Source of the DNA: an uncultured Bacteroidales bacterium | GTDB taxonomy: Bacteria; Bacteroidota; Bacteroidia; Bacteroidales; Paludibacteraceae | Direction: 5' to 3' | Assembly (NCBI GenBank): GCA_946614295.1 | Contig: CAMOGT010000022.1 | Coordinates: 1-11,846 of the forward strand | Length of the DNA: 11,846 nucleotides | Part shown: positions 1 through 11,846 of the stretch, in pieces | Layout: each line of letters opens with the position of its first letter | Position numbering within the stretch: position 1 is the first letter of the stretch | The notes under the pieces: model-generated | The model's database searches: none | The model's input: the letters and a program-made list of their open reading frames with translations, nothing else | What the model was told of the DNA's origin: nothing | Program-made: the position numbers and the translations under genes

Positions 1-416
1 GCTTCGCTATAGACTACGCAGCCGGTACCGAGGTGCGCATCCTGCTCGGCGGCAGTACCGGTAGGCAGAACCTGACTCAACTGATCGTAGTTAGCCGCAT
101 CGCGGGTCTCCAGACCCCAGTAGGGGTGGAACGTGGCCTGGTTAGGACGATACTCCTGCAGGTAAAGCACCTTGAAGGACTTGGTGTTATTATCGAAGAA
201 CGGCATCGGGTCACCTACATAGCCGGTGTACGGCGCATAATAGGTAGTAGCCGGCTTCTCATCGCCGGAGGCATAATAAGTCGTTGTGCCGTCCCAGTCT
301 TTCTGCTCGACATCATCCTTTTTCTCGCAGCCGGAAAGAGTAGCGCATAATAACATGAGACCTACTCCGACTCTCCCCATATGGAGGGAGAAACTATTAT
401 TCATTGTTGCTTTCAT
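1..416 (-). CDS. GH32-like beta-propeller lipoprotein, C-terminally cut by the window edge
   Basis: Only the first 138 codons are present; the frame stays open to the left edge. The N-terminus is a lipoprotein signal peptide with a lipobox LSGC (Cys30), followed by the acidic stretch EKKDD, which resembles the surface-export signal of Bacteroidetes lipoproteins. Residues 66-90 (GDPMPFFD, then KVLYLQEYRP) can be lined up by eye with the first propeller blade of the canonical GH32 protein at 8775-10190 (NDPNGMFYD, then HLYYQHNPFG). Asp69 falls at the catalytic nucleophile position, and WMNDPNG is replaced by YVGDPMP. Later segments (YWGLETRDAANYDQL, then LGTGCVVY) match the following strands of the same fold. 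I infer a divergent fructan-active or fructan-binding protein on the cell surface; activity cannot be judged without the rest. The chosen ATG lies 5 bp after the upstream gene's stop. An in-frame ATG at 422, overlapping that stop as TAATG, is an equally possible start. Confidence 0.72.
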   Translation of the reverse strand, partial: MKATMNNSFSLHMGRVGVGLMLLCATLSGCEKKDDVEQKDWDGTTTYYASGDEKPATTYYAPYTGYVGDPMPFFDNNTKSFKVLYLQEYRPNQATFHPYWGLETRDAANYDQLSQVLPTGTAAEQDAHLGTGCVVYSE

Positions 417-421
417 ATCCA

Positions 422-1789
422 TTATTTAGATAAATAGTTAATAGCATTTTCCGTTATTTTGGCGACATTGGCGTGGTAGTATTCGGTGACGCCCTCTGCC
501 ACGGTGTACCAGTCATAGCAACCGGAGCCGATACAGATGATGCCTCCGTGTGTTCCGTTAGCCGGATACTCCCATGCCACTACGGCATCATTGCCGCCGG
601 CGATATCTACAGCGCCGGTCTTGGTGCAGAACTCCGCCTTGGTGGCGTAGCCTCCCCAGTCAGAACCGATATGATACTGTGCGGTAGAGTTGGTGATGCG
701 GTATCCTTTGTCGCAGGTATAGACCGAATTGGGGTTCTCGGAGTTCATCACGAGGTTCTGCCAGATAGCGTGGTCGGTATGGCCGGCGATGCTGAATTCC
801 CACGGATTATTGATCGTCTCGGCGTCATCTTCATTCTGCCCCCAGCAGTTATTCGGCACACAGTCCGCTTCGCCCAGGTATGCCGGCAGATAGGTGGCAT
901 AGCGGGTGAGGAGGAAGGCTCCGCCGTTGTTATAGTACTCCTTCAGTTTCTCTATAGCCGGCAGCGCGTCAGCGGCGTTTGTCTCGAATTGACCCTTGCC
1001 GTCAATACCGCCGTCCTTATGGAGATGCCACCATATTACCTTGCACTCGCTCAGATCCACATGTCCTGCCGCTATGTCGGAGAACGAAGCATATTGCGCA
1101 TCCTCGATCGTGCTCAGCAGCCATGCGCACGCAGCCTGCTCCTCTTTGTTGAGTTGCTGCTGGGTCGGAGCCAGACCCGCATAGAGTGCTTTGGGTTTGC
1201 CCATCACTTTGACGGTAACAACGTATGCCGTCGAGGCGGTGTTATAGGTTACAGTGAACGTCACCGGATTGGTGAAATCACAGGGCACGCCGCTCATCGG
1301 CGATACCGTCGCTCCTTCGGTCATGGTAATGGTGGGCACCATATTCTTGACATTGGTGCCTTCCGGTACCTGTACCGTGACGGTATGCTGCGATTCGTTG
1401 ATGATACCTGCGTACTCGTTATTGAGTTTGAAACTGAGGATATGCGCCTCGTCATGCTTTACGCGGATGGTGAACTCCTGGTATAAGTTTCCGTTCGTCA
1501 CCACGATTGCGCGCGGCGTAAGGAGGTTCAGTTTGTCTCCTACACGCAGGTTCGCCTCGGCACCGGCAGAGAGCTGGAGTTCCGTGACGGTCATAAGTTG
1601 CTCGTCATAAGTCTCCGGGATAGCGACCACTACGGTCCTTTTCGCCGGATCAATCGTACCTTTGTATTGGCCATCCAGCGTGATGGCTTCGATATTGCAA
1701 TCGCCTTCCAGATTGAAGGAGTTGTCTTTTTTGCAGCTTGCCAGCATCAGCGAGCAGAGTGCAAAGATATATACCATTATTCGTTTCAT
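422..1789 (-). CDS. Fructan PUL surface glycan-binding lipoprotein (BT1761-like, DUF4960-type)
   Basis: This 455-residue protein begins with a lipoprotein signal peptide (lipobox LASC, Cys19, followed by KKDN). Two Ig-like beta-sandwich repeats follow at about residues 28-112 and 113-196; each ends in a similar strand (FTIRV, YVVTVKV). A C-terminal alpha/beta domain occupies about 200-455 and contains a glutamine-amidotransferase-like core pattern (VIWWHLHKDGG near 251-261, GGAFLLTRYATYLPAYLG near 289-306, HGGIICIGSG near 414-423). From memory this matches the DUF4960 family found beside SusCD in Bacteroides fructan loci, where BT1761 binds levan at the cell surface. I saw no glycosidase motif. 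Many Trp and Tyr residues in the last domain fit carbohydrate stacking, which is inference. The start codon is one base after the SusD stop, so translation is probably coupled. The glycan-binding role rests mainly on position and family resemblance. Confidence 0.8.
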   Translation of the reverse strand: MKRIMVYIFALCSLMLASCKKDNSFNLEGDCNIEAITLDGQYKGTIDPAKRTVVVAIPETYDEQLMTVTELQLSAGAEANLRVGDKLNLLTPRAIVVTNGNLYQEFTIRVKHDEAHILSFKLNNEYAGIINESQHTVTVQVPEGTNVKNMVPTITMTEGATVSPMSGVPCDFTNPVTFTVTYNTASTAYVVTVKVMGKPKALYAGLAPTQQQLNKEEQAACAWLLSTIEDAQYASFSDIAAGHVDLSECKVIWWHLHKDGGIDGKGQFETNAADALPAIEKLKEYYNNGGAFLLTRYATYLPAYLGEADCVPNNCWGQNEDDAETINNPWEFSIAGHTDHAIWQNLVMNSENPNSVYTCDKGYRITNSTAQYHIGSDWGGYATKAEFCTKTGAVDIAGGNDAVVAWEYPANGTHGGIICIGSGCYDWYTVAEGVTEYYHANVAKITENAINYLSK

Positions 1790-1790
1790 A

Positions 1791-3530
1791 TTACCATCCT
1801 CCTATGTTTTGTGTATAATGTCCGTTGGAAGCGGATATCTGCGAGAAAGGAATAGGCAGATACTCGTTCTTGTTGGCGGTGAAATGCGCCTCGCTGTAGA
1901 TTGCGCAGTTATCCGCCTCTTCGGCGTAGTACTTGTTGATTACTTTCTCCGCCTCGCCCCAGCGCACGAGGTCAAAGAATCGCTCGGACTCCATGGCGAG
2001 TTCAAGACGGCGCTCCATCTTCACGCGCTCCAATGTCTCCTCTTTGCCATAACCGCCCGGATAGGGTTTAACGAGCATATGCGCGCCGTATTGGATATCA
2101 TATCCGTCGAGCATCGCCGTACTCTGTGCGGCACGCGAACGGAGACGGTTTACCAGACTAATGGCGTCGCCCAGATCGGTACCAAGTTGTGCTTCCGCCT
2201 CTGCACGCATCAGCAGCACATCGGCGTAACGCAGTACGATACGGTTCATTGGGCTGCCCCACCATGCGCCCTTGATCAGATACTCGGTGTCGGGGTCCAC
2301 ATTATGTTTGAGGGATACATAGTAGCCATACAAACCGTTGGAACGACTCCAGGTCATGGTCTTGGCCATCATGTAGTTGGGATTGAACATATACGGGAAG
2401 CCGGGAACGCCAACGGTAAGCCACAAGCGCGGGTCGGCATTGTCGCTCAATTTCCAGTCCGTCTGGTTATAGCTGTCCAGCAGAGGCAGACCGGCATCAT
2501 CAGTATGGAACGCGTTCACGAGGTTCTGGCTGGGTTTATAGAAATCACAACCGCCGTCGGTTACACCCGGGATATTCGGAACGATCAGACCGTACGACCA
2601 GTTGCAGTTTCCGTTCTTCGTACCGTCGTTCATCGAGTACTGCATCGCCCAGATACTCTCACGCCCGTTCTCATATTGAGGCTCCGGACGGAAGTTATTA
2701 TGCAGGTCGGGCTCAAGATCATATCCGGCATACAGGGAAGGATCGGTGTATTTGATTACCTGCTTGAGATCCTCCTCGTTGATACTCGTTACCTGATGGG
2801 TATTCGGATCGTCCTGACGGTAGGCCTTATAGAGATATACCTTGGCGAGCAGCGCAGCAGCGGCGGCTTTGGTAGGACGGCCTTTTTCTACTTGTGTCTG
2901 AGGCAGCGTATTGAAGGCATAGGTGAGATCATTGGCGATAACCTGCCATCCTTCGTCATTGCTGTACTCCGTGTTGGAGAGATTGTTGTATTCATCCTGG
3001 GTCATATTCGGCTTGATGACAAACGGAATATTCTTATACAGACGCTTCAAAAGGAAATGTCCGTACGCACGGAGAAAATACATCTCGCCGAGGCGTTGCT
3101 CTTTGAGTTTGTAGCTCTCGTCCATCTCCAGCAGCACGTCAATAGCGGCGTTGGTACGGCTCAGTGCATTATACAAACGCACCCACATGTCATTGATATT
3201 CCAGTTGGTCGTCAGCACGCCTTGGGAAATCTCCAGCTGGTGGAATACATCGCCGTCCGATGTTCCGTTTCCGCCTTTGTAGGCGTCATCGGAGCGGACG
3301 TCAAAGTTCCACATGGAGAAGGAGGAGTTGATATCCTCGGCGGAGATGAAGACGGCATACGCAGAGATAACCATGTTCTCCACTTGCTTCGGGTCGCGTA
3401 CCTGCTCCTCGCTCAGGGTCGCCTGCGGGACATTGCCGTCCATAAACGAACAGGCGCTGAAGAAACTACAGAGGAACCAGGCATAAAGGGCGATGGTTAA
3501 TATCTTATTTGGTTTCATAACAGTATTCAT
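1791..3530 (-). CDS. SusD-family outer-membrane glycan-binding lipoprotein (RagB/SusD)
   Basis: The protein is 579 residues from the ATG at 3530, a usual length for SusD homologues. It has a lipoprotein signal peptide with lipobox FSAC (Cys27), then a helical TPR-like SusD fold. Family hallmarks near the C-terminus are RIVLRYADVLLMRAEAEAQLG, followed by RRLELAMESERFFDLVRWGE and the closing YLPIPFSQI...QNIGGW. SusD proteins cap the SusC channel on the cell surface and hold the oligosaccharide for import; the fructan substrate here is inferred from the neighbours. The reading frame opens at 3536 with a TTG, but the ATG at 3530 or the one at 3518 (MKPNK...) are better starts, and both give a complete signal peptide. 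The gene sits 27 bp after SusC and 1 bp before the DUF4960-like gene, so the three are surely co-transcribed. Confidence 0.95.
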   Translation of the reverse strand: MNTVMKPNKILTIALYAWFLCSFFSACSFMDGNVPQATLSEEQVRDPKQVENMVISAYAVFISAEDINSSFSMWNFDVRSDDAYKGGNGTSDGDVFHQLEISQGVLTTNWNINDMWVRLYNALSRTNAAIDVLLEMDESYKLKEQRLGEMYFLRAYGHFLLKRLYKNIPFVIKPNMTQDEYNNLSNTEYSNDEGWQVIANDLTYAFNTLPQTQVEKGRPTKAAAAALLAKVYLYKAYRQDDPNTHQVTSINEEDLKQVIKYTDPSLYAGYDLEPDLHNNFRPEPQYENGRESIWAMQYSMNDGTKNGNCNWSYGLIVPNIPGVTDGGCDFYKPSQNLVNAFHTDDAGLPLLDSYNQTDWKLSDNADPRLWLTVGVPGFPYMFNPNYMMAKTMTWSRSNGLYGYYVSLKHNVDPDTEYLIKGAWWGSPMNRIVLRYADVLLMRAEAEAQLGTDLGDAISLVNRLRSRAAQSTAMLDGYDIQYGAHMLVKPYPGGYGKEETLERVKMERRLELAMESERFFDLVRWGEAEKVINKYYAEEADNCAIYSEAHFTANKNEYLPIPFSQISASNGHYTQNIGGW

Positions 3531-3557
3531 TTTCAATTTTCACCTTTCATTTTTCTA

Positions 3558-6500
3558 TTAGAACGTTACTTTCGTTCCGAGCGTCACGGTCAACGGAATA
3601 GGATATTTGAAATTGGGGTTCTCCGGATCTACGCCCGTGAAGGACTTGCTATGGATCGTGAAGACGTTCTGCGCGGAGATATACCAGCGCCAGTTCTGCA
3701 TCTTCATCTTCTCCGTAGCCGATTTGGGGAGGTTGTAACCCAATTGGATGTTACGCAGTTTGAGGAATGATCCGTCCTCTACCCAATAGGTGGACACACG
3801 CTTCTCGTTGTTGTTGTCCGAGAGTGAGAGAGCCGGGATATTACTGTCCGGGTTCGTCGGACTCCAGGCATCCAAGAGTCGAGTACCCTTATTGAGGAAA
3901 CCGATGTTGAGTCCAGCCCAGATATCCGTCTCACGCTTGAGATCGGAGATCACATCCACTTTGCCTACGCCCTGGAAGAAGAGCGTGAGGTCGAATCCTT
4001 TGTACTCGAAATAGAAATTGGCACCGAAGGAAACAGCCGGTACCGGAGAGTAAATCCAATCTTGGTCCGCCTCGTTGATAACTCCGTCATTATTGAGGTC
4101 CTTGTAGCGTATTCGGCCCAGACCGGCACCCTCCTGATAAGCATGGTTGTCTATCTCATCCTGTGATTTGAAGATACCGTCTGCTATGTAGCCCACTTGC
4201 GAACCGATGGCGTGTCCCACTACGGACTTGACGCCGTTGCCGCCGAACCTGCCGCTGGCAGCTACGGTCTCCGGCAGCTTGACCACCTTGTTGCTGTTAT
4301 GCGAGATATTCGCCGCTATATCGTATTTGAATCCGCCGCTGGTCTGGTTGCGATAACCTACACTGAATTCCACACCCATGTTATCTACGGCGCCGGCATT
4401 CACCCATTGGGATGAACCTTCACCCATCGCTGCAATACCGTCCATGAAGACAAGGATGTCTTTCGTCTGCTTGTAGTACCAGTCCAACGAACCATAGAAT
4501 GTCTGCTTGAAGAACGAGAAGTCCAGACCTACGTTGGTCTGCATCGTCGTCTCCCATTTGATATCATCGTTTCCTATCTGGTCACGCTTGAAACCGGAAG
4601 GCAGCGTCTGACCGCCGTTGGTGCCCATGATATCATACGAAGTACCGTACGACTGACCGCCCGACTCGTTAACTCCGTAGTTGGGGATATAAATCGTGTA
4701 GCGCGCAATCTGAGATATATCCTGATTACCGGTCTGACCCCATGATACACGCAGCTTGAGGTCATCCATCCAGGACGATGCGCCGCTCATGAATTTCTCT
4801 TGGCTGATACGCCATCCGGCAGATACGGAGGGGAAGAAAGCAAAGCGGTTGTTCTTACCGAAACGGCTCGATCCGTCGCAACGGGCGGTAAAAGAAATCA
4901 GATACCGGTTGTCGTAGGTATAGTTCGCCTTCGCGAAGAACGAGAGAAGCGAATAACTGCCGCCTGTTCCGTATGCCTGTGCCTGACCTACACCCGCATC
5001 CGGCCACATATAGTCCGGACTGAGAACCAGGAAGCCCTCTTTATAACCGGAAAACAACTGGTCTATGGATTTGTTCAACTCGGTACCTACCAGGAAGTCC
5101 GCACGGTGCTTGCCTTTCTCCAGGTTATAGGTCACAATGGCATTCCACATCCATTTGGTCCAGTGCTCCTGCTTCGCCTCCACGGCGTTCTTGTCATTCG
5201 CCATCGTGCCCTCCGTAATCGGATAGGTGAAGATACGCTGGCTTTTCTGGGCATAGTCGATACCTGCCGTGGTGCGGATATGAAGACCCTTCACAGGGTT
5301 GATATCGATGAAGGCGTTTCCGAAGATACGCCAGTATACATATTTATTGTCTTTATTGCGGTTGAGCCTTGCCAGCGGGTTTTCACGGTCAGGATAACCG
5401 CCTACGGGACCGGCAAAATCACCGTCCTTCGTATATACCGGCAGTGAGGGGTTGAACTGCAGCACGTTCTCCAGGAATTTATCCGGCGCTACTACCTCGG
5501 ATGTACGGCTCAGGGTGAAGTTCTCGCCGATCGTCACTTTGTCATTGAAGAGCTTGTAATCGCTGTTGGCACGGGCTGAGAAACGGTCGAAATTGGTATA
5601 TTTGATGATACCGTCATTGCGGTAGTACCCTAACGAGAAGAAACTGCTTCCTTTCTTGCCGCCGTGCGATACGGCTACGTTGTAGTTCTGTATCCAACCC
5701 GGACGGGTGGTCTCTTGGTACCAGTCGGTATTGGCGGCGGGTACCGTACCTGCTTCATCCAGATATTTGTTCATCGTGATTGTATTGAGGGCCGGATAAC
5801 CTTGGTTGTCATATCCCCAGTCATAGTGATACCCCAGCGCATTGCTGTTCGGGTTCATGCCGTCGTTCACATATGCCTGCCACATCACCTTGCCGAACTG
5901 CTCCGAGTTCAGCACTTTCATCTTGTTCACGTAGTTCTGCGAGGAAACGGAGGCGTCGAACGTCACATTCAGTTTGCCCTCCGTACCTTTTTTCGTAGTG
6001 ATGATGATCACACCGTTCGCAGCACGCGATCCGTAGATGGATGCAGAAGCGGCATCCTTGAGGATTTGAATGGACTCGATGTCGTTCGGGTTCAGTTCGT
6101 GCATGCCTGACTTGGTAGCCACTCCGTCAATGATGTACAGCGGATCTTTGTCATTGAGCGTTCCCTCGCCACGGATGCGTACGGTAGCCGCTCCGGACGG
6201 GTTTCCGTCCGCTTGGATGTTCAGACCCGGCACTTTTCCTTGAAGCGCCTTCATCGGGTTGTTCTCTTGCTGCTTCTCCAAGTCCGCCGAACTGATGGCG
6301 GAGATCGCACCGGTGAGGTCGGCCTTGCGCTGGGTGGTATAACCCGTCACTACTACCTCGTCGAGGATCTCGGTGTCTTCAGACAACAGCACTTTTAAGT
6401 TCTCGCCGGCGCCCATCGTCTGGGAAGCGTAACCTACATAGCTGATTTCCAGCGTAGCATCATCGGCTACCTCCAACACGAACTTACCGTCAAAATCGGT

Positions 6501-6653
6501 AATGGTTCCGTTGGTGGTACCTTTTTCTAAGACACTGGCTCCGATAATCGGTTCGCCCGTCGCCTGGTCAACTACCACACCCGATGCCGGGCGCGCTATT
6601 ACAGGAAGAGCGAAAAGCACCATCAGGAGTCCTGTGATAAATGTTTTTCTCAT
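3558..6653 (-). CDS. SusC-family TonB-dependent outer-membrane transporter
   Basis: This 1031-residue protein has the full SusC layout. There is a signal peptide (about 1-20) and a carboxypeptidase-regulatory-like domain (about 24-92, with VVVDQATGEPIIGASV and FDGKF). The TonB-box region DEVVVTGY is at 98-105. The plug domain starts near 110 and contains ALQGKVPGLNIQADG, then DPLYIIDGVAT and the GSRAANGVIIITTKKG segment. A large beta-barrel ends in the aromatic residue of VTLGTKVTF. SusC proteins import oligosaccharides across the outer membrane using TonB energy and pair with SusD. Fructan oligosaccharides are the likely cargo given the GH32 and fructokinase genes of the same operon. The ATG is preceded by an A/T-rich stretch without an obvious Shine-Dalgarno site, as is common in Bacteroidetes. 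It lies 19 bp after the fructokinase stop. No truncation or frameshift is visible. Confidence 0.96.
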   Translation of the reverse strand: MRKTFITGLLMVLFALPVIARPASGVVVDQATGEPIIGASVLEKGTTNGTITDFDGKFVLEVADDATLEISYVGYASQTMGAGENLKVLLSEDTEILDEVVVTGYTTQRKADLTGAISAISSADLEKQQENNPMKALQGKVPGLNIQADGNPSGAATVRIRGEGTLNDKDPLYIIDGVATKSGMHELNPNDIESIQILKDAASASIYGSRAANGVIIITTKKGTEGKLNVTFDASVSSQNYVNKMKVLNSEQFGKVMWQAYVNDGMNPNSNALGYHYDWGYDNQGYPALNTITMNKYLDEAGTVPAANTDWYQETTRPGWIQNYNVAVSHGGKKGSSFFSLGYYRNDGIIKYTNFDRFSARANSDYKLFNDKVTIGENFTLSRTSEVVAPDKFLENVLQFNPSLPVYTKDGDFAGPVGGYPDRENPLARLNRNKDNKYVYWRIFGNAFIDINPVKGLHIRTTAGIDYAQKSQRIFTYPITEGTMANDKNAVEAKQEHWTKWMWNAIVTYNLEKGKHRADFLVGTELNKSIDQLFSGYKEGFLVLSPDYMWPDAGVGQAQAYGTGGSYSLLSFFAKANYTYDNRYLISFTARCDGSSRFGKNNRFAFFPSVSAGWRISQEKFMSGASSWMDDLKLRVSWGQTGNQDISQIARYTIYIPNYGVNESGGQSYGTSYDIMGTNGGQTLPSGFKRDQIGNDDIKWETTMQTNVGLDFSFFKQTFYGSLDWYYKQTKDILVFMDGIAAMGEGSSQWVNAGAVDNMGVEFSVGYRNQTSGGFKYDIAANISHNSNKVVKLPETVAASGRFGGNGVKSVVGHAIGSQVGYIADGIFKSQDEIDNHAYQEGAGLGRIRYKDLNNDGVINEADQDWIYSPVPAVSFGANFYFEYKGFDLTLFFQGVGKVDVISDLKRETDIWAGLNIGFLNKGTRLLDAWSPTNPDSNIPALSLSDNNNEKRVSTYWVEDGSFLKLRNIQLGYNLPKSATEKMKMQNWRWYISAQNVFTIHSKSFTGVDPENPNFKYPIPLTVTLGTKVTF

Positions 6654-6672
6654 GATTATTTGTTATTTAGGA

Positions 6673-7575
6673 TTATTTTAAGTTCTCGGGAAGTACCGGC
6701 ATCGCGCCGTTTTGGGTACATACGAAGGCGGAAACGGATACCGCTTTCTCATGCGCCTCACGGATGGATTTGCCCAGCAGTAGCTGCGCTACGAAGGTAG
6801 CCGTGAACGAATCGCCGGCTCCTACTGTATCCGCCACTTTCACTTTCGGAGTGGCTACATAGCTCTCTTCATTCGCCGTAAAGACATACGAGCCGATCGC
6901 GCCGCAGGTCAGGATAAGCATCTGCAGGTCATATTTGGCTATCAGTTCGTGACATATGCTGCGCGTCTTTTCCGCATCTTCCGCTATCAGCTTGCCCGGG
7001 ACGGTGGAAACACCCAGCAGCATCGTCGCTACCACATCCAGTTCCTCGTCGTTGATCTTGAGCACATTGGCGCGATTGAGACTCTCTGCGATTACCTCGG
7101 CGGTGTACCAGTTCTGACGCAGATTGATGTCGAATACACGCAGTGCATCTGCCGGAGCCTCGTCGAGAAATGCGTGGATGGTCTCGCGGCTCGTCTGGGA
7201 GCGCTGGGCAAGCGAACCGAAGCATATTGCCTGCGCATGACGGGCTGCATACAGCATTTCGTCGGTCAGAGGGATATTATCCCATGCTACGCCCAGACAG
7301 ATATCATACTGGGGTACACCCTTCGAGTCAAGCGTCACCTTGACCGTTCCGGTCGGCTGCTCTACTACAGGCAGGATATGTTCCAGCCCTACTCGCTCGA
7401 ATGTTTCTACAATCTCGTCGCCCAACTCATCGTTTCCTATGGCAGAGATGGCCAAGCCATCCAGACCGAACTGGGATACATGGTAAGCAAAATTGGCTGG
7501 GGCGCCGCCCAGTTTGCGGCCATCAGGCAGGCAGTCGAATAACGCCTCGCCTATTCCTATTACGTATTTTTTCAT
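6673..7575 (-). CDS. Fructokinase (PfkB/ribokinase-family carbohydrate kinase)
   Basis: A 300-residue cytoplasmic sugar kinase of normal family length. The N-terminal PfkB region shows the substrate-binding GGAPANFA motif (23-30). The C-terminal signature DTVGAGDSFTATF (249-261) carries the anion-hole GAGD with Asp255 as the expected catalytic base. In a fructan locus the expected reaction is ATP-dependent phosphorylation of fructose to fructose 6-phosphate, feeding glycolysis; BT1757 has that role in B. thetaiotaomicron. The gene follows the permease by 18 bp and precedes SusC by 19 bp, so uptake and phosphorylation are co-expressed. PfkB kinases for other sugars (ribose, 2-keto-3-deoxygluconate, adenosine) look alike, so the fructose assignment rests on both the sequence style and the context. 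Confidence 0.9.
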   Translation of the reverse strand: MKKYVIGIGEALFDCLPDGRKLGGAPANFAYHVSQFGLDGLAISAIGNDELGDEIVETFERVGLEHILPVVEQPTGTVKVTLDSKGVPQYDICLGVAWDNIPLTDEMLYAARHAQAICFGSLAQRSQTSRETIHAFLDEAPADALRVFDINLRQNWYTAEVIAESLNRANVLKINDEELDVVATMLLGVSTVPGKLIAEDAEKTRSICHELIAKYDLQMLILTCGAIGSYVFTANEESYVATPKVKVADTVGAGDSFTATFVAQLLLGKSIREAHEKAVSVSAFVCTQNGAMPVLPENLK

Positions 7576-7593
7576 ACTATTAGATATGTTAAA

Positions 7594-8754
7594 TTATTTC
7601 TTTATCTTCAAGGTATAGAATAGCAGATAGAGTGTGCCTACCGTCATCACGCATACGGCGCCTACCGTGCCGAAAGCCTGGGATGCGTAGCCCATGAAGA
7701 GCGGGAAGATGGTTCCGCCGAAAAGACCCATGATCATCAGGCCGGACACCTCGTTCTGCTTCTCAGGCTCCGCTTTCAGCGCCTCCGCAAACACGATGGA
7801 GAAGATATTCGAGTTTCCGAAACCCACCAGCGCAATGCCGGTATAGAGCAGGGCCTGCGTCTGGCCGAAACTCATCAGAATCATAGCCGCCAACATCATC
7901 AACGCACTGATGGCGAAGAAAGTCTTGCCCGATACATAGCGCAGAATGAACGAGCCGCTGAAACAGCCGATGGTACGGAAGATGAAATAGAGAGAGGTAG
8001 CAAACGCTGCCTGATGTAAGGTCCAACCCAGACGCTCCATCAGCAGTTTCGGAGCGGTGGTGTTAGTGCCTACATCAATTCCTACGTGGCACATGATGCC
8101 GAGGAAGCAAAGAAGTACAAACGGACGCCCGAGCAGCCGGAAGCAGTCCGCGAAACCCGACGCTTTGCCTTCGATAGGTTTTTCCTCTATGTGGGTGAGA
8201 TAGAGAAATATCGTAGCCAATACACCGATTATACCATACACCACAAAGATGATACGCCAGTCCAGCCCGAAAGACGGAATGGCGGCTACGGCTCCCCAGG
8301 TCATGATAATCGGCGCCATGAATGATGCTATCGCCTTGACGAACTGACCGAACGTCAGGGTGGCTGCGAGTTTGTCGCCGCTAATCAGATTCGTCACGAG
8401 CGGGTTCAGACTCGTCTGCATGATAGCGTTGCCGATTCCGAGAAGCGAGAAGGCAACCAGCATCAGGTAGTAACTGTTGCCGCATAGGGGCAGCAATAGC
8501 GACAGTAGCGTCACGCCTAACGATACGAGTACCGTATTCTTACGGCCGATCCGGTTCATCAGAGCCGATGTCGGTACCGAGAATATCAGAAACCAGAAGA
8601 ATACCAGACTCGGGATGAAATACGTCTGCGATTCGGTCAACCCCAAATCGGCTTGAACATGGTTGGATGCCGCGCCTACCAGATCCACAAAACCCATCGT
8701 GAAGAAGGTCAGCATCACCGGCAAAAATGCCATGAAAGATGTTTTCTTTTCCAT
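7594..8754 (-). CDS. MFS sugar/proton symporter, fucose-permease (FHS) type, probable fructose importer
   Basis: A 386-residue integral inner-membrane protein with about 12 hydrophobic segments. It carries an MFS motif-A-like sequence NRIGRK (67-72) in the loop after the second helix, and an acidic residue in helix 1 (FVDLVG, Asp24), the region where fucose permease has its protonation site. The style (MAFLPVMLTFFTMGFVDLVG at the start, NPLVTNLI after helix 4) fits the FHS group of proton-coupled monosaccharide symporters. Next to a GH32 enzyme and a fructokinase, fructose is the likely substrate, as proposed for BT1758. The frame opens at a GTG at 8778 that overlaps the upstream TGA, but the ATG at 8754 (MEKKTSF) is the more usual start and leaves a 20-bp gap. 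Substrate specificity is inferred from context only. Confidence 0.88.
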   Translation of the reverse strand: MEKKTSFMAFLPVMLTFFTMGFVDLVGAASNHVQADLGLTESQTYFIPSLVFFWFLIFSVPTSALMNRIGRKNTVLVSLGVTLLSLLLPLCGNSYYLMLVAFSLLGIGNAIMQTSLNPLVTNLISGDKLAATLTFGQFVKAIASFMAPIIMTWGAVAAIPSFGLDWRIIFVVYGIIGVLATIFLYLTHIEEKPIEGKASGFADCFRLLGRPFVLLCFLGIMCHVGIDVGTNTTAPKLLMERLGWTLHQAAFATSLYFIFRTIGCFSGSFILRYVSGKTFFAISALMMLAAMILMSFGQTQALLYTGIALVGFGNSNIFSIVFAEALKAEPEKQNEVSGLMIMGLFGGTIFPLFMGYASQAFGTVGAVCVMTVGTLYLLFYTLKIKK

Positions 8755-8774
8755 AAGTATTAAATCATTAGAAA

Positions 8775-10190
8775 TCACAAATTACAATCATATAGGGTCG
8801 CCTTGCCGCCTTCCACCTTAATATGGTTATAGGGCTTGGACGGGAATACAAGGTTCGTCATCGCCCAGTAGCCGTTGGCATCAAAAGCCTCAATGGAGCA
8901 ATGGTCAAGGAAGAGAATCACGTGATACGAATCCTGCTTGACAAAGAGCGGCGTAGTCGTTGCGCCGGTGAAATCCGCGGAGAAAGAGCAATCGCCCGAC
9001 TCGGTGCGGTCCATCGTGAAGGTGTGTTTATATACATTGAGGGTCATGACCACGCTCTCGCCGCAGTCATTGGAGAGGGTGATGACACCCGTCTCGGTGC
9101 CGCTCATATCCAGCTCAATGATGGCTATATCGCCGAGCTGCTTTGCCTCCGCTCCCTTGATAGCCATACTTTCCGGAGAGGGCAACACGCGTACGCGCAC
9201 CTCACCCGCGTCATCCTTATATAGACTCAACTCACGCGCGATCGTGTTTTGCGAGCGGAAGGAGACGGTAGGCACATTGTTTGCATACTGCCAGTTGGAC
9301 ATCCAGCCCAGGGATACTACGCGGTTATCCGGAGCGTTATGCCAGGTGAAGGTGCTGTAGTTATCCTTGCCGTAGTCCAGCCATTTGGTCTCGGCGGGAT
9401 CGTCGGTGCAGGTAAAGCTGTGACCGTCCCATTTCCCTACGAAATACTGCGTGGCACTGCCGCCGAATAGACCGCCCGGGTTAAGACTGACCAACAAAAT
9501 CCAATCGTCGCCGAATTGCAATAACTCCGGACACTCCCATACGCCTCCGTGGGCGCCGTAACCTGCACCGAAAGAAGATTCGTATTTCCATTCTTTCAAA
9601 TCGGCTGAGGAATAGAAACGGATCTCCTGCTGGCATGCCAATGTCATGAGCCAGCGTTGGCTCTGCGCATCCCAGCATACTTTCGGGTCGCGAAAATCAG
9701 AAACATCGCCTCTCAGTACGGGGTTACCCTCATATTTGGTGAACGTCATGCCGCCATCGAGACTATAGGCGATGGATTGATGCTGACCGCATATCTCCGA
9801 TTGGGTAAATACCGCCACGATGGCGTTCTCGCCAAATCCTGCTGTATTAGTACGGTCTATTACGATAGAGCCGGAGAAAATCGTTCCTAACGAGTCCGGA
9901 GAAAGAGCTATCGGCTGGGGCTCCCAATGGATGAGATCCGTAGAGGTAGCATGCCCCCAGTGCATCGGACCCCAGGTCGTACCGAAAGGATTGTGCTGAT
10001 AATAAAGATGCCATACTTGTGCGGCTTCGTCATAGAACATACCGTTCGGGTCATTCATCCAGTTCTGCGACGGAGAATGATGATACACGCTGCGATACGG
10101 TTCATCGGTGGGATGATGAGCCGGTTGGCGGGTACAGGATGCCATGACGCAAACCAGAGAAACTAAGAGGAAAATGGTTGTCTTTTTCAT
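8775..10190 (-). CDS. GH32 beta-fructosidase lipoprotein (levanase/inulinase/invertase type)
   Basis: A 471-residue glycoside hydrolase of family 32 with all three catalytic signatures. WMNDPNG (44-50) carries the nucleophile Asp47, RDPK (167-170) the transition-state stabiliser Asp168, and WECPEL (218-223) the acid/base Glu219. A five-bladed propeller (about 35-330) is followed by the C-terminal beta-sandwich (about 335-471), ending with the typical FLDHCSIEAFDANG segment. The signal peptide ends in lipobox MASC (Cys19). The next residues, TRQPAHH, are not acidic, so I predict a periplasm-facing lipoprotein rather than a surface one. It would release fructose from imported fructan oligosaccharides. 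Endo versus exo action and beta-2,1 versus beta-2,6 preference cannot be read from the sequence. The frame opens at a TTG at 10226, which lies inside the promoter's -7 element, so the ATG at 10190 is the start. It is the first gene of the operon. Confidence 0.96.
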   Translation of the reverse strand: MKKTTIFLLVSLVCVMASCTRQPAHHPTDEPYRSVYHHSPSQNWMNDPNGMFYDEAAQVWHLYYQHNPFGTTWGPMHWGHATSTDLIHWEPQPIALSPDSLGTIFSGSIVIDRTNTAGFGENAIVAVFTQSEICGQHQSIAYSLDGGMTFTKYEGNPVLRGDVSDFRDPKVCWDAQSQRWLMTLACQQEIRFYSSADLKEWKYESSFGAGYGAHGGVWECPELLQFGDDWILLVSLNPGGLFGGSATQYFVGKWDGHSFTCTDDPAETKWLDYGKDNYSTFTWHNAPDNRVVSLGWMSNWQYANNVPTVSFRSQNTIARELSLYKDDAGEVRVRVLPSPESMAIKGAEAKQLGDIAIIELDMSGTETGVITLSNDCGESVVMTLNVYKHTFTMDRTESGDCSFSADFTGATTTPLFVKQDSYHVILFLDHCSIEAFDANGYWAMTNLVFPSKPYNHIKVEGGKATLYDCNL

Positions 10191-10223
10191 CGTATTAAAT
10201 CGTTTTTGAGGTTTTTGACGGTG

Positions 10224-10255
10224 CAAAAGTACAACAAATTATACACGCGCACAAA
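10224..10255 (-). promoter_or_regulatory. Bacteroides-type promoter for the fructan operon
   Basis: On the minus strand a perfect -7 element TACTTTTG (10231 down to 10224; consensus TAnnTTTG) is preceded, with a 20-bp spacer, by TTTG (10255 down to 10252) at the -33 position. This matches the known primary-sigma promoter of Bacteroides. The predicted transcript would begin near 10218, giving a leader of about 28 nt before the GH32 ATG at 10190. The -33 TTTG is the end of a seven-T run that directly abuts the dyad at 10261-10319, so an activator bound there could touch RNA polymerase. Confidence 0.75.
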
Positions 10256-10319
10256 AAAATATGTTGCAAAATATGACACGTATGTTTCACTGCAACAAAT
10301 CGTGCATATTTTGCAACAT
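10253..10319 (-). terminator. Possible intrinsic terminator of the regulator transcript
   Basis: Read as RNA from the minus strand, the dyad would fold into a 15-bp stem extended by 4 bp beyond a single bulge, with a 20-nt loop. It is followed after one A by seven Us (10259 down to 10253). It begins 22 nt after the regulator's stop codon, a normal place for a terminator. The stem is A/T-rich at its base, so strength is uncertain, and the same bases may instead act as a DNA operator. Confidence 0.4.
10261..10319. repeat. 59-bp dyad with perfect 15-bp arms, candidate regulator operator
   Basis: ATGTTGCAAAATATG (10261-10275) is repeated exactly in inverted form as CATATTTTGCAACAT (10305-10319). 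Just inside, CACG (10277-10280) pairs with CGTG (10301-10304) if one base (10276) is bulged. The centre holds a second, imperfect dyad, TGTTTCA-C-TGCAACA (10283-10297), about the same axis. The heptamer TGCAACA thus occurs at 10291-10297 and 10312-10318 in direct orientation 21 bp apart, and inverted at 10262-10268. It lies immediately upstream of the -33 element, the place expected for an AraC-type activator site. Binding by the regulator encoded next door is inferred. Confidence 0.65.
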
Positions 10320-10341
10320 TTCTACCACTCGGGCGCTGCTT

Positions 10342-11817
10342 CTACCTTGCGCTGGGCAGATGCCCGAAGTACTCTTTATAGCATTTGGAGAAATAGCCGG
10401 GAGAGGAGAAACATAGTTCGAGCGCCACCTGCTGGATGGTCATGTCGGTCGTACGCAGCAACTCATCCGCGCGGACTAACCGGCGCTCACGGATGTAGTC
10501 TAAAGGCCCCTTGCCGGTGATTGCCTTGACGCGGCGGAAAATCTGCGTGCGGCTCAACGCAAGCGCACTACCGAGAAACTCCACATTCAGCTTCGGATCG
10601 GTCAAATGGTCATCTACTATCTGCTTCAGCCTTTCCCCGAAGGCTACATCGCGGTGACTCAGTTGAATGGCTTCCTGTACCTCCTCCAGTTGCGGCAGGA
10701 TATCACGCTTGATTTCCTTTTTGATGCTTCCCTGGGAATAGAATAAAAAAGCGAGTATGATCAGGAAAAGAAAACTGACGCCTACGATGATCAACACGAT
10801 CACTATGCGCCCATAGCGGATCTGTTGCCATCGCGATTCGGATTGCAACTGTACTATATGCAGGGTCTCAAAATCATGCATCCGCGCGCGGTACTGCATC
10901 AGCATCGGAGTGGCAATACTGGCATCTATCAGGATAGTCTCCAGTACCGTATCGCGCACAAAGGGCTCTCGGGACAATATGTGCGCGGCGGTTTCTATAA
11001 TCATATCTCCTCGTGAGGGATAGGTGGCGGAGCACTCGATTGTGCCGTCTAAAATAGCCTCCAACCCCAGTGTAATACCGTCAACACCCATGATCCGCAC
11101 GCTGCCTTTGCCGTACCCTTTACTGTCGCGTACTGCCTCTGCCGCTCCTATGGCCATCAGGTCATTATGCGCCACAATGGCATCTACATCCTTGTGTGTA
11201 CGCAAATAGTCAAGTACTACGCGGTAGGCGTCCTCTTTGTACCAAGAACCCATGACGGACGCGACTTCGGGATGGATGCCGCCGGATTGGGCTATCCGGT
11301 CCATCATCCCCTGATGACGAAGTGTAGCGGGAGTAGAGCCGGGAAGACCGGCTACCTCCAATACATGAAGCGCCTGTTTTTGGGTCGATTGGATAGAAAG
11401 GACCCAGTCTGCCATCAACTCACCTACACGGTAGTTATCTCCGCCGATAAAAGCAGTCCAATCCTCACCGCTTACTCGCCTGTCTGCAATAATGACAGGT
11501 ATTCCCGCGCTGTAGGCTCGGGTAACGGCAGGCTTGACCTCCTCCCCTACATTAGGACTGACAATCAGCAAATCCACCCGCTCGGCGATGAAACTGTCTA
11601 TCTGCGCGCATTGCAACTCACTACTGCCGTACGCGATGCGCCGCGATATGCGCATCTCCGGGTGCAGCAATAACTCACGCTCCATCTCATCATTCATTTT
11701 TTGCCGCCACGCATCATCCAAACATTGGCTCAGACCGATACGATACTGTCCCTGACGCGTGCCACATCCCGTCAAAACAAATAGTAAAACAAATGTACTG
11801 ATAATTATGTTTCTCAT
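10342..11817 (-). CDS. Membrane one-component regulator: periplasmic sugar-binding domain, one TM helix, AraC-type HTH
   Basis: A 491-residue protein built in four parts. An N-terminal signal sequence ends in lipobox LTGC (Cys18). A periplasmic-binding-protein domain of the ribose-binding type (about 25-310) has YRIGLSQCLDDAWRQKMNDE, VDLLIVSPN at 81-89, AFIGGDNYRVGE, VDAIVAHNDLMAIGAA near 211-226 and MGVDG at 243-247. One transmembrane helix spans about 337-360. After a basic, helical linker (361-394) comes an AraC-type DNA-binding domain (395-488) with two helix-turn-helix units (LGSALALSRTQIFRRVKAITG and VALELCFSSPGYFSKCYKEYFG). The sensor resembles that of BT1754, the fructose-sensing hybrid two-component protein of B. 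thetaiotaomicron, but the histidine kinase, ATPase and receiver domains of that class (several hundred residues) are missing. The frame is continuous and no remnant is visible. I infer that fructose binding is passed straight through the membrane to activate the operon downstream. It might also control its own promoter. Confidence 0.88.
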   Translation of the reverse strand: MRNIIISTFVLLFVLTGCGTRQGQYRIGLSQCLDDAWRQKMNDEMERELLLHPEMRISRRIAYGSSELQCAQIDSFIAERVDLLIVSPNVGEEVKPAVTRAYSAGIPVIIADRRVSGEDWTAFIGGDNYRVGELMADWVLSIQSTQKQALHVLEVAGLPGSTPATLRHQGMMDRIAQSGGIHPEVASVMGSWYKEDAYRVVLDYLRTHKDVDAIVAHNDLMAIGAAEAVRDSKGYGKGSVRIMGVDGITLGLEAILDGTIECSATYPSRGDMIIETAAHILSREPFVRDTVLETILIDASIATPMLMQYRARMHDFETLHIVQLQSESRWQQIRYGRIVIVLIIVGVSFLFLIILAFLFYSQGSIKKEIKRDILPQLEEVQEAIQLSHRDVAFGERLKQIVDDHLTDPKLNVEFLGSALALSRTQIFRRVKAITGKGPLDYIRERRLVRADELLRTTDMTIQQVALELCFSSPGYFSKCYKEYFGHLPSAR

Positions 11818-11819
11818 GC

Positions 11820-11842
11820 TGCAACATTTTCACGCTGCAAAA
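11820..11842. repeat. Operator-like motif upstream of the regulator start
   Basis: TGCAACA (11820-11826) is followed by TTTTCACGCTGCAAAA (11827-11842), so a second, similar heptamer TGCAAAA starts 16 bp after the first. The TTTCAC-TGCAA pairing resembles the centre of the dyad at 10281-10300 (TTTCACTGCAACA). The motif overlaps the regulator's -7 element and its predicted short leader, a position that suits negative autoregulation. Sharing of the motif is visible; binding is inferred. Confidence 0.45.
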
Positions 11843-11845
11843 TTA
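11838..11845 (-). promoter_or_regulatory. -7 element of the regulator promoter
   Basis: The minus strand reads TAATTTTG from 11845 down to 11838, a perfect match to the Bacteroides -7 consensus TAnnTTTG. The predicted transcript start near 11832 would leave a leader of only about 15 nt before the ATG at 11817. The -33 element would lie beyond the window, so the promoter cannot be fully confirmed. Confidence 0.5.
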
Positions 11846-11846
11846 G

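Follow-up and report, generated by a model that had tools for sequence, protein, structure and literature searches.

How can a sugar in the periplasm control a fructan operon through a protein in which sensor and DNA-binding domain are joined by little more than a transmembrane helix? This question is raised by a gene at positions 10342 to 11817 (minus strand) of an 11,846-nucleotide stretch of DNA from an uncultured Bacteroidales bacterium of the Paludibacteraceae (assembly GCA_946614295.1, contig CAMOGT010000022.1, positions 1 to 11,846), called the window throughout. The gene encodes a 491-residue regulator made of the two ends of a hybrid two-component system (HTCS) of the type of BT1754 from Bacteroides thetaiotaomicron, and we consider it likely, judging from its sequence and its relatives, that the protein acts as an inner-membrane, phosphorylation-free, sugar-controlled one-component activator of the fructan operon.

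Domain architecture of the regulator

The regulator gene is divided as follows, with the evidence for each part in brackets.

10342..11817, minus strand: one-component membrane regulator gene, 491 amino acids, stop codon included in the coordinates (open reading frame, Pfam, structure model)
11764..11817, minus strand: lipoprotein signal, residues 1-18, lipobox LTGC with C18 (sequence, alignment)
10918..11748, minus strand: periplasmic sugar-binding domain of BT1754 type, residues 24-300 (Pfam, structural relatives, invariant residues)
10735..10809, minus strand: transmembrane helix, about residues 337-361 (hydropathy, continuous helix 299-403 in the model)
10642..10734, minus strand: cytosolic helical linker, about residues 362-392, at the point occupied in HTCSs by kinase and receiver (identity, spacing)
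10345..10641, minus strand: AraC-type DNA-binding domain, residues 393-491 (Pfam, tree of DNA-binding domains, mean identity)

The frame starts with ATG and is uninterrupted over its full length. Pfam matches cover residues 34-280 (PF13407) and 417-490 (HTH_18/HTH_AraC), the HTH_18 match reaching 66.9 bits at a cut-off of 33.6, with two helix-turn-helix (HTH) motifs that are helical in the structure model. HisKA, HATPase_c and Response_reg gave no Pfam match in the protein at E ≤ 0.001, and all three were detected with the same profile library in an HTCS (locus L059) taken as positive control. Of 34 NCBIfam matches the 25 listed fall to sugar-binding proteins or to regulators of AraC or LacI type, every one under its cut-off. 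Apart from the signal segment, hydropathy indicates a single transmembrane segment. An earlier note on this DNA had described an intact frame and a BT1754-like sugar-binding domain joined to an AraC-type domain by one transmembrane helix and about 35 residues, with neither kinase parts nor a receiver; domain search and structure prediction bear out this description throughout. The protein shares periplasmic sensor and transmembrane segment with the HTCSs and lacks HisKA/HATPase_c and the receiver; with two defining parts absent it is not an HTCS by membership. As a predicted transmembrane segment and a DNA-binding domain reside in one protein, it classes as a transmembrane one-component regulator, and the missing domains suggest that signalling would proceed without phosphorylation.

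How closely does the sensor resemble known sugar-binding domains? By sequence the nearest solved structure is the fructose-binding domain of BT1754 (2x7x; E 5e-54), which also ranks first in Foldseek (TM-score 0.89 by target, 34% identity), and the domain combines the Peripla_BP_4 fold with the conserved pocket residues that mark CUT2-type sugar-binding proteins. Residues W37, R38, D112, R113, R167, N218 and D246 show no variation in 32 core and 5 divergent members of the one-component form (OCS in the following, that is sensor, transmembrane segment and HTH without kinase or receiver) and in 26 HTCSs; N89, D35 and Y266 each deviate in one OCS. Several of the invariant residues presumably correspond to the sugar contacts of ribose-binding-type proteins. 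This invariance indicates a pocket under selection, the ligand of which is probably a fructose-like monosaccharide. A feature beyond the earlier note is the lipoprotein signal: C18 is invariant in a 68-row alignment, and a lipobox-like pattern occurs within the first 60 residues of 111 of the 120 homologues listed (of 667), suggesting that the sensor is probably anchored in the membrane at both its ends.

The AlphaFold2 monomer, computed from the 68-row alignment (mean pLDDT 89.4, pTM 0.65), contains an unbroken helix of residues 299-403 that leaves the binding domain, spans the membrane and forms the first helix of the DNA-binding domain. Among the 32 core OCSs mean identity is 0.76 in the linker as against 0.47 in the transmembrane segment, reaches 0.88 in the DNA-binding domain, and the spacing from A302 to F393 amounts to 91 residues in 29 of them. 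With a BT1754-type sensor, a conserved linker of nearly fixed length and an HTH domain, DNA binding would be controlled through the geometry of a dimer. A pseudogene was dismissed, the frame being open and dN/dS against the nearest full copy, L006, being 0.07; synonymous sites are saturated for most pairs.

Is the architecture peculiar to this locus? A search of 5.8 billion proteins returned 667 homologues at E ≤ 1e-20, 120 of which are listed; it was confined to lengths between 0.55 and 1.75 times that of the query, which shut out full HTCSs. All 120 carry both domains within 441-536 residues, and in none of them is an H-box-like pattern found. A sequencing or assembly deletion was dismissed, as equal length recurs in all of these and in many genome assemblies. 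A genome scan free of any restriction on protein length yielded 79 loci, L001-L053 with OCSs and L054-L079 with HTCSs. Some of the OCS loci lie at contig edges or are frame-broken (L046 is an N-terminal piece only), and 25 of the HTCSs have an open frame of 883-979 residues, that of L074 being interrupted. The protein alignment accordingly omitted L031, L040, L043 and L053 (frame-broken or N-holding) and the contig-edge copies L046, L047, L049, L051 and L052. As L004 and L046 end too early to show the next genes, 51 of the 53 OCS loci are informative, and in 47 of these GH32 or SusC fructan genes follow, the exceptions being L011, L033, L037 and L038. The L011 regulator is 70% identical, and no fructan gene was matched in its 7.2-kb locus.

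Among 200 genomes of the family to which the L006 genome belongs, 51 match at E ≤ 1e-40 (up to 7 candidates scored per genome, two short-framed HTCSs checked separately); 13 of these hold an intact OCS, 3 a broken or contig-edge copy and 35 the HTCS type, and none both. Across 395 genomes of the phylum 20 match (up to 3 candidates scored each), namely the genome of L006 itself, genome G413 with a second kind of OCS, 15 genomes assigned to the HTCS type by frame length alone (≥908 residues), and G281, G351 and G494, in which the match is a sensor kinase or a binding protein standing by itself. The impression of the earlier note that the domain combination is unusual has to be revised: instead of a one-locus rarity there is a conserved family, mainly in rumen Bacteroidales, of matching length and beside fructan genes, and an independent Lewinella-type family besides.

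The operator and the fructan locus

What does the regulator act upon? Directly after the regulator gene, and ahead of GH32 or SusC, the OCS loci carry a candidate operator followed by a promoter, in the window represented by:

10262..10318, minus strand: 57-bp operator with two-fold symmetry, made up of four TGTTGCA-like half-sites with offsets of 0, 21, 29 and 50 (28 of 28 scored positions)
10252..10255, minus strand: -33 element TTTG, 6 bp past the operator (same place in 47 of 49 sites)
10224..10231, minus strand: -7 element TACTTTTG (TAnnTTTG), 30 bp past the operator (30 bp in 48 of 49 sites)

The half-sites read TGTTGCA, TGTTGCA, TGMAACA and TGCAACA in order, and -33 TTTG with -7 TAnnTTTG is what we take to be the promoter consensus. 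In the 49 sites with intact outer half-sites TAnnTTTG follows the operator after exactly 30 bp in all except one and TTTG after 6 bp in all except two; the 30-bp gap is the same before GH32 and before SusC, two different contexts with one geometry. A place just upstream of -33 at a fixed distance is a usual one for an AraC-type activator. The operator lies where such an activator would touch RNA polymerase, which fits activation and not repression.

Among the 51 informative OCS loci 46 have an operator scoring at least 26/28; L011, L033, L037 and L038 have no copy at the locus, and one order-1 Markov control of the same 1.3 Mb reached at most 20/28. When whole genomes were searched with up to 3 mismatches, 41 of the 42 OCS genomes searched contained the operator, with 58 distinct sites in total and 1-3 in each, and the reversed pattern had no site in the same genomes. 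Thirty-eight of the 58 sites adjoin a regulator gene. Of the 20 sites away from the regulators first found, 18 are followed by GH32 or SusC genes or, in a single case, by a second regulator copy, which brings the sites in such positions to 56 of 58. One site (L158:514-570, G231:C7) scores 26/28 and has no recognised fructan gene in the 8 kb fetched, and in genome G002 a full operator with promoter (L101:1501-1557, L121:2335) precedes a 282-residue secreted open reading frame (ORF) about 16 kb from the regulator. In genomes G222 and G227 operators precede SusC and GH32 without an adjoining regulator (L151-L154) and the regulator is found on another contig, from which it would have to act in trans; G226 cannot serve as such a case, its contig breaking off next to the operator. 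In G234 the operator precedes the second regulator copy itself, which suggests cross-control between the copies. The leader of the regulator gene in the window (11818-11846) contains no full operator; a single TGTTGCA half-site stands just before the regulator start in L001, L002, L006, L024, L005 and L010.

Downstream of the regulator the genes follow in the order GH32, MFS transporter, PfkB kinase, SusC, SusD and DUF4960 protein, all on the minus strand:

8775..10190, minus strand: fructan hydrolase of family GH32, nearest gene downstream of the operator (PF00251/PF08244)
7594..8754, minus strand: MFS sugar transporter, start at an inner ATG assumed (PF07690)
6673..7575, minus strand: PfkB-family sugar kinase, fructokinase-like (PF00294; fructokinase is the highest NCBIfam match, under its cut-off)
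3558..6653, minus strand: SusC-type TonB-dependent transporter (Pfam)
1791..3518, minus strand: SusD-type lipoprotein (Pfam)
422..1789, minus strand: DUF4960/DUF5018 protein (Pfam)

Positions 1-416 (minus strand) hold the start of another gene with a lipoprotein-like signal that runs past the left end of the window. The earlier note had named the need for a separate kinase and receiver as an outcome that would speak against it; no histidine kinase or receiver was found among the six other scanned genes of the window, nor, above 60 bits, in the flanking sequence fetched for L001-L053, and unlinked HTCSs do occur in such genomes.

How might sugar binding be conveyed to the operator? Briefly, the lipid-anchored BT1754-type periplasmic domain would close on a fructose-like monosaccharide, and the movement would travel down the continuous helix of residues 299-403, probably within a parallel dimer, through the transmembrane segment and the short linker. 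The signal would reach the AraC-type domain directly and there, instead of changing kinase activity, would alter how the two DNA-binding domains are spaced or turned. Two dimers, that is four domains, would fill the 57-bp operator, which consists of two 21-bp direct repeats placed head to head just upstream of -33, and the occupied operator would switch on transcription of GH32-MFS-PfkB and/or SusC-SusD-DUF4960 without phosphorylation. By ancestry the regulator would belong to the fructose-sensing HTCSs, kinase and receiver having been lost from, or never joined to, this pairing of sensor and HTH. We infer the ligand, the binding of the operator by the regulator, its dimer or tetramer state, activation as opposed to repression and the direct signalling through the helix. 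What is reported for HTCSs is compatible with such a scheme, as the receiver suppresses the DNA-binding domain and easing of their contact leads to binding without phosphate (Gao 2024, PMC11253607), and as HTCSs bind DNA while intact, presumably at the membrane (Lowe 2012, PMC3404733).

Kinship with the hybrid two-component systems

Where did the regulator come from? The earlier note held that both ends of a fructose-type hybrid had been kept, and for the DNA-binding end this agrees with two kinds of evidence in addition to the BT1754-type sensor at the other end. The first is the operator design, which 13 of the 26 HTCS loci share on the strand scanned, with TGTTDCA half-sites in 21-bp repeats placed head to head. 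There are 14 such sites, the two repeats being separated at the centre by at most one base, and one Markov control yielded none; the gene that comes next is SusC in five cases, MFS in two and a 508-795-residue ORF preceding GH32 in seven. For 16 HTCSs of B. thetaiotaomicron the motifs were described as direct repeats averaging 21 bp apart, in a study that names BT1754 HTCS_Fru (Ravcheev 2013, PMC3878776). The second is a tree of HTH domains that includes 27 other AraC-type genes of two genomes (11 OCS and 17 HTCS rows; L173 and L185 omitted as duplicates, L194 for lack of a hit), in which OCSs and fructose HTCSs form one group (support 94/95, bootstrap not settled). On this grouping, the idea that the DNA-binding domain was borrowed from some unrelated AraC protein in these genomes was dismissed. 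D390, which by its 39-residue spacing only is matched to the receiver-contact aspartate of BT4124, is found in 32 of 32 core OCSs, in none of the 5 divergent ones and in 23 of 26 HTCSs; position 429, matched in the same way to the receiver-contact lysine of BT4124, is R in 32 of 32 core OCSs and K in all 5 divergent OCSs and all 26 HTCSs.

The trees of the separate parts tell a more intricate story. In the HTH tree all 37 OCS domains lie on one side of a branch (98/94). In the sensor tree the HTCS L059 lies within the OCSs as sister to the core group (100/99), and an OCS clade excluding it is rejected (p-AU 8.6e-5); 15 loci were named for omission from this tree, 14 of them rows and mostly near-copies or truncated, and the HTCS L074 with its interrupted frame is in no tree. 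Both the HTH and the kinase-receiver part of L059 group with the HTCS L114 (100/99; the kinase tree lacks 5 of the 26 HTCSs, whose H-box the pattern missed), a placement of that HTH beside the core OCSs is not rejected (p 0.108), and the genome of L059 also encodes an OCS. As kinase-receiver and HTH belong with L114, L059 would most simply be a recombinant in which an OCS-type sensor is joined to the kinase-receiver-HTH module of another HTCS. The simplest reading is then that the Bacteroidales OCSs had one origin, after which the recombinant L059 would have arisen by placing an OCS-type sensor on an HTCS body.

A second lineage exhibits the loss itself. Genome G413 encodes a 561-residue protein with the same two domains and no match to a kinase or receiver up to E 1. 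Compared with most HTCSs it aligns to about residue 402 and resumes at about 401-411, with some 360-380 HTCS residues missing, and it retains the K-P-F of the receiver and its last helix (EDKPFD...), a receiver scar. Nine such Lewinella-type proteins of 517-572 residues are listed (three of the nine from organisms named Lewinella or Neolewinella), all nine with the scar, and they nest among HTCSs whose named members are mostly Saprospiraceae. A shared origin with the Bacteroidales OCSs is rejected even when L059 and L114 are allowed in (p-AU 7.6e-58, from a tree using 26 of 111 HTCSs listed), and the G413 locus contains MFS, SusC, SusD and GH32 genes. The nine proteins appear to have lost kinase and receiver independently of the Bacteroidales OCSs, which with the scar as a witness supports the reading that a hybrid can turn into a one-component regulator.

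How could the same sensor serve both kinds of protein? The BT1754 sensor with its transmembrane segment and 14 cytosolic residues signals on the body of another HTCS, more weakly than the native one (Lowe 2012, PMC3404733). If the transmembrane signal of these sensors were a generic helix movement, readable by a kinase or by a pair of DNA-binding domains, fructose HTCSs would be convertible to phosphorylation-free membrane activators. For this reading as a whole, by which such conversions took place two or more times while sensor and fructan regulon were retained, and an HTCS was rebuilt at least once by returning such a sensor to a kinase module (L059), our belief falls just short of the balance point.

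Several points weigh against the regulator being a directly signalling descendant of the HTCSs. The structure model is a monomer only, with a pTM of 0.65 and a confidence that drops to 60-70 in the linker, and the ligand is assigned by homology at about 34% identity. A chimera in which only the DNA-binding end of BT1754 was swapped gave no signal (Lowe 2012, PMC3404733). The operator copies are kin by descent, so that their counts measure conservation and not independent events, and the 41 genomes with an operator among 42 cannot be taken as so many separate trials. Of the 53 OCS loci, the operator search covered the genomes of all but 11 (L003, L004, L027, L031, L040, L041, L046, L047, L049, L051, L052); genome G211 (L011) has a regulator and no operator at up to 3 mismatches, and L029 has only a decayed operator copy beside the regulator. 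Moreover, the operator design is lacking at 13 of the 26 HTCS loci on the strand scanned, and was not found on the Lewinella side (G413 locus, L205); on both strands no match at 24/28 occurs in the regions fetched for the divergent OCSs L109-L113 (of which L112 and L113 carry a simple half-site pair in place of the four-site operator) and for the HTCSs L114 and L059 (=L117). Being present in core OCSs and Bacteroides-type HTCSs and missing in the branches between, the design may have been lost there or may have re-evolved. Finally, the linkers of the Bacteroidales OCSs contain no receiver scar, so that deletion is not directly shown there.

The missing scar and the lack of the operator design in the divergent OCSs would also suit a different history, in which the Bacteroidales OCSs arose three times, or by joining of the sensor to the HTH of another regulator, and not by one reduction of an HTCS. 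This history, which we judge rather doubtful and yet far from negligible, draws further support from the sensor tree, in which L059 is nested and a single clade without it is rejected. However, the HTH tree keeps all 37 OCS domains on one side, the OCS domains group with those of the fructose HTCSs and not with the 27 other AraC genes (that bootstrap not being settled), and the placement of both kinase-receiver and HTH of L059 with L114 makes a recombinant the simplest explanation, the alternative with p 0.108 still standing. Of the reduced hybrid sensor that the earlier note proposed, the kinship of both ends with HTCSs has stood, as has the plausibility of the loss, through the scarred Lewinella type; the route in the lineage of the window may have been a deletion or a swap of the cytosolic half.

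Mode of action and known counterparts

Could the regulator repress instead of activate? A membrane-held repressor that occupies the operator in the sugar-free state and is released by the sugar seems unlikely. In its favor, HTCSs with a non-consensus contact between receiver and DNA-binding domain may bind unphosphorylated, and BT2391 represses its polysaccharide utilization locus (Gao 2024, PMC11253607); likewise, a tethered pair of DNA-binding domains without a receiver could bind constitutively. However, the operator stops 6 bp upstream of -33 and leaves the promoter free, at a distance fixed in 48 of 49 sites, and the operator design is used by 13 of 26 fructose-HTCS loci, BT1754 itself being required for upregulation of its locus (PMC3404733).

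Does the regulator need a partner, either a separate kinase or a full HTCS with which it forms a heterodimer, to bring phosphorylation in? Genome G010 encodes both the regulator type and a fructose HTCS, and other HTCSs occur unlinked in such genomes; however, the regulator has no known phospho-acceptor domain, the 200-genome survey (E ≤ 1e-40, up to 7 candidates scored per genome) found no genome with both types among its 13 intact OCSs and 35 HTCSs, and 9 of 10 OCS genomes have no sensor-matching HTCS at E ≤ 1e-10, all of which makes a partner most improbable. Release of a soluble DNA-binding domain by proteolysis after sugar binding can be set aside as hardly credible, even though regulated proteolysis of membrane regulators is known and model confidence falls in the linker, as the conserved sequence and length of the linker (identical in 29 of 32 core OCSs) fit rigid transmission better. 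In addition, an antibody to the periplasmic domain of BT1754 recovered target DNA, indicating that the intact parent type binds DNA (Lowe 2012, PMC3404733).

Direct activation from the membrane, the reading we prefer, places a demand on the protein. It has been argued that DNA-binding domains on a dimeric membrane sensor have to be suppressed, which in HTCSs is achieved by the receiver (Gao 2024, PMC11253607). If regulators without a receiver are sugar-controlled, other means of suppression must exist, which is directly testable.

How does the regulator compare with known systems? With BT1754 it has the sensor fold, the aligned pocket and the kind of fructan locus in common, and with the HTCS relatives of BT1754 the lineage of the DNA-binding domain and, in 13 of 26, the operator design. 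In HTCSs HisKA, HATPase and receiver lie between transmembrane segment and HTH, whereas in the regulator that stretch is a linker of some 31 residues, with no receiver to be phosphorylated. XylR of E. coli, like the regulator, combines a sugar domain resembling periplasmic binding proteins with an AraC-type domain; unlike the regulator it is soluble and cytosolic, without signal peptide or transmembrane segment. SusR has a different sensor from the periplasmic-binding-protein sensor of the regulator, which instead of the SusR domains shows periplasmic binding protein and HTH_18. The SusR-like regulators of Bacteroides are likewise membrane regulators of a polysaccharide locus with a sensor domain on the outside, and their boxes are six or seven helix turns apart (PMC3878776), compared with two turns in the operator described here. 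Transmembrane transcription regulators in general are single proteins with transmembrane segment and DNA-binding domain that are thought to sense the outside and to act at the membrane (Demey 2023, PMC10269533); judging by the names in Table 1 of that review, none of the characterised ones (ToxR, CadC, TcpP and others) combines a periplasmic binding protein with a C-terminal AraC domain. Rsp of Neisseria gonorrhoeae, made of the PilS receptor and the PilR DNA-binding domain, also condenses two-component parts, but from other families and with another sensor, and is reported to repress pilA (PMC10269533). The earlier note allowed that the architecture might already be known as common in fructan loci; among the openly licensed titles and abstract openings listed, with most subscription journals outside this scope, no published description of it was found.

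That membrane one-component regulators may have evolved from two-component systems is a possibility raised before (Demey 2023, PMC10269533). Here the step from two components to one is seen with parent type, product, likely recombinant and independent repeat, all in fructan loci, and the parts are small enough for a sugar-controlled membrane switch in gut Bacteroidales. Two related genomes (G004 and G193) also encode membrane regulators with TPR, transmembrane segment and AraC domain (L168, L174, L179, L181 and L194, the TPR being weak in L194), indicating that the one-component principle at the membrane is already common; what is new is the route from HTCS to OCS.

Other arrangements of the same parts occur nearby. 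Some genomes hold two diverged regulator copies (L160 in G234, L162 in G220, L109/L110 in G203). In G281 a 615-residue sensor kinase (L202:3140-4987) consists of the same periplasmic binding protein with HisKA and HATPase, without receiver or HTH, and stands beside an MFS-like transporter ORF and a PfkB kinase; it is a fructose HTCS in split form. Lone sugar-binding proteins at L203:2281-3225 and L204:2042-2974 are 43-48% identical to the fructose sensor of an HTCS and are followed, directly in L203 and one gene further in L204, by an ORF that by eye resembles an ABC-type ATPase; proteins of this kind are perhaps the stock from which the sensor came.

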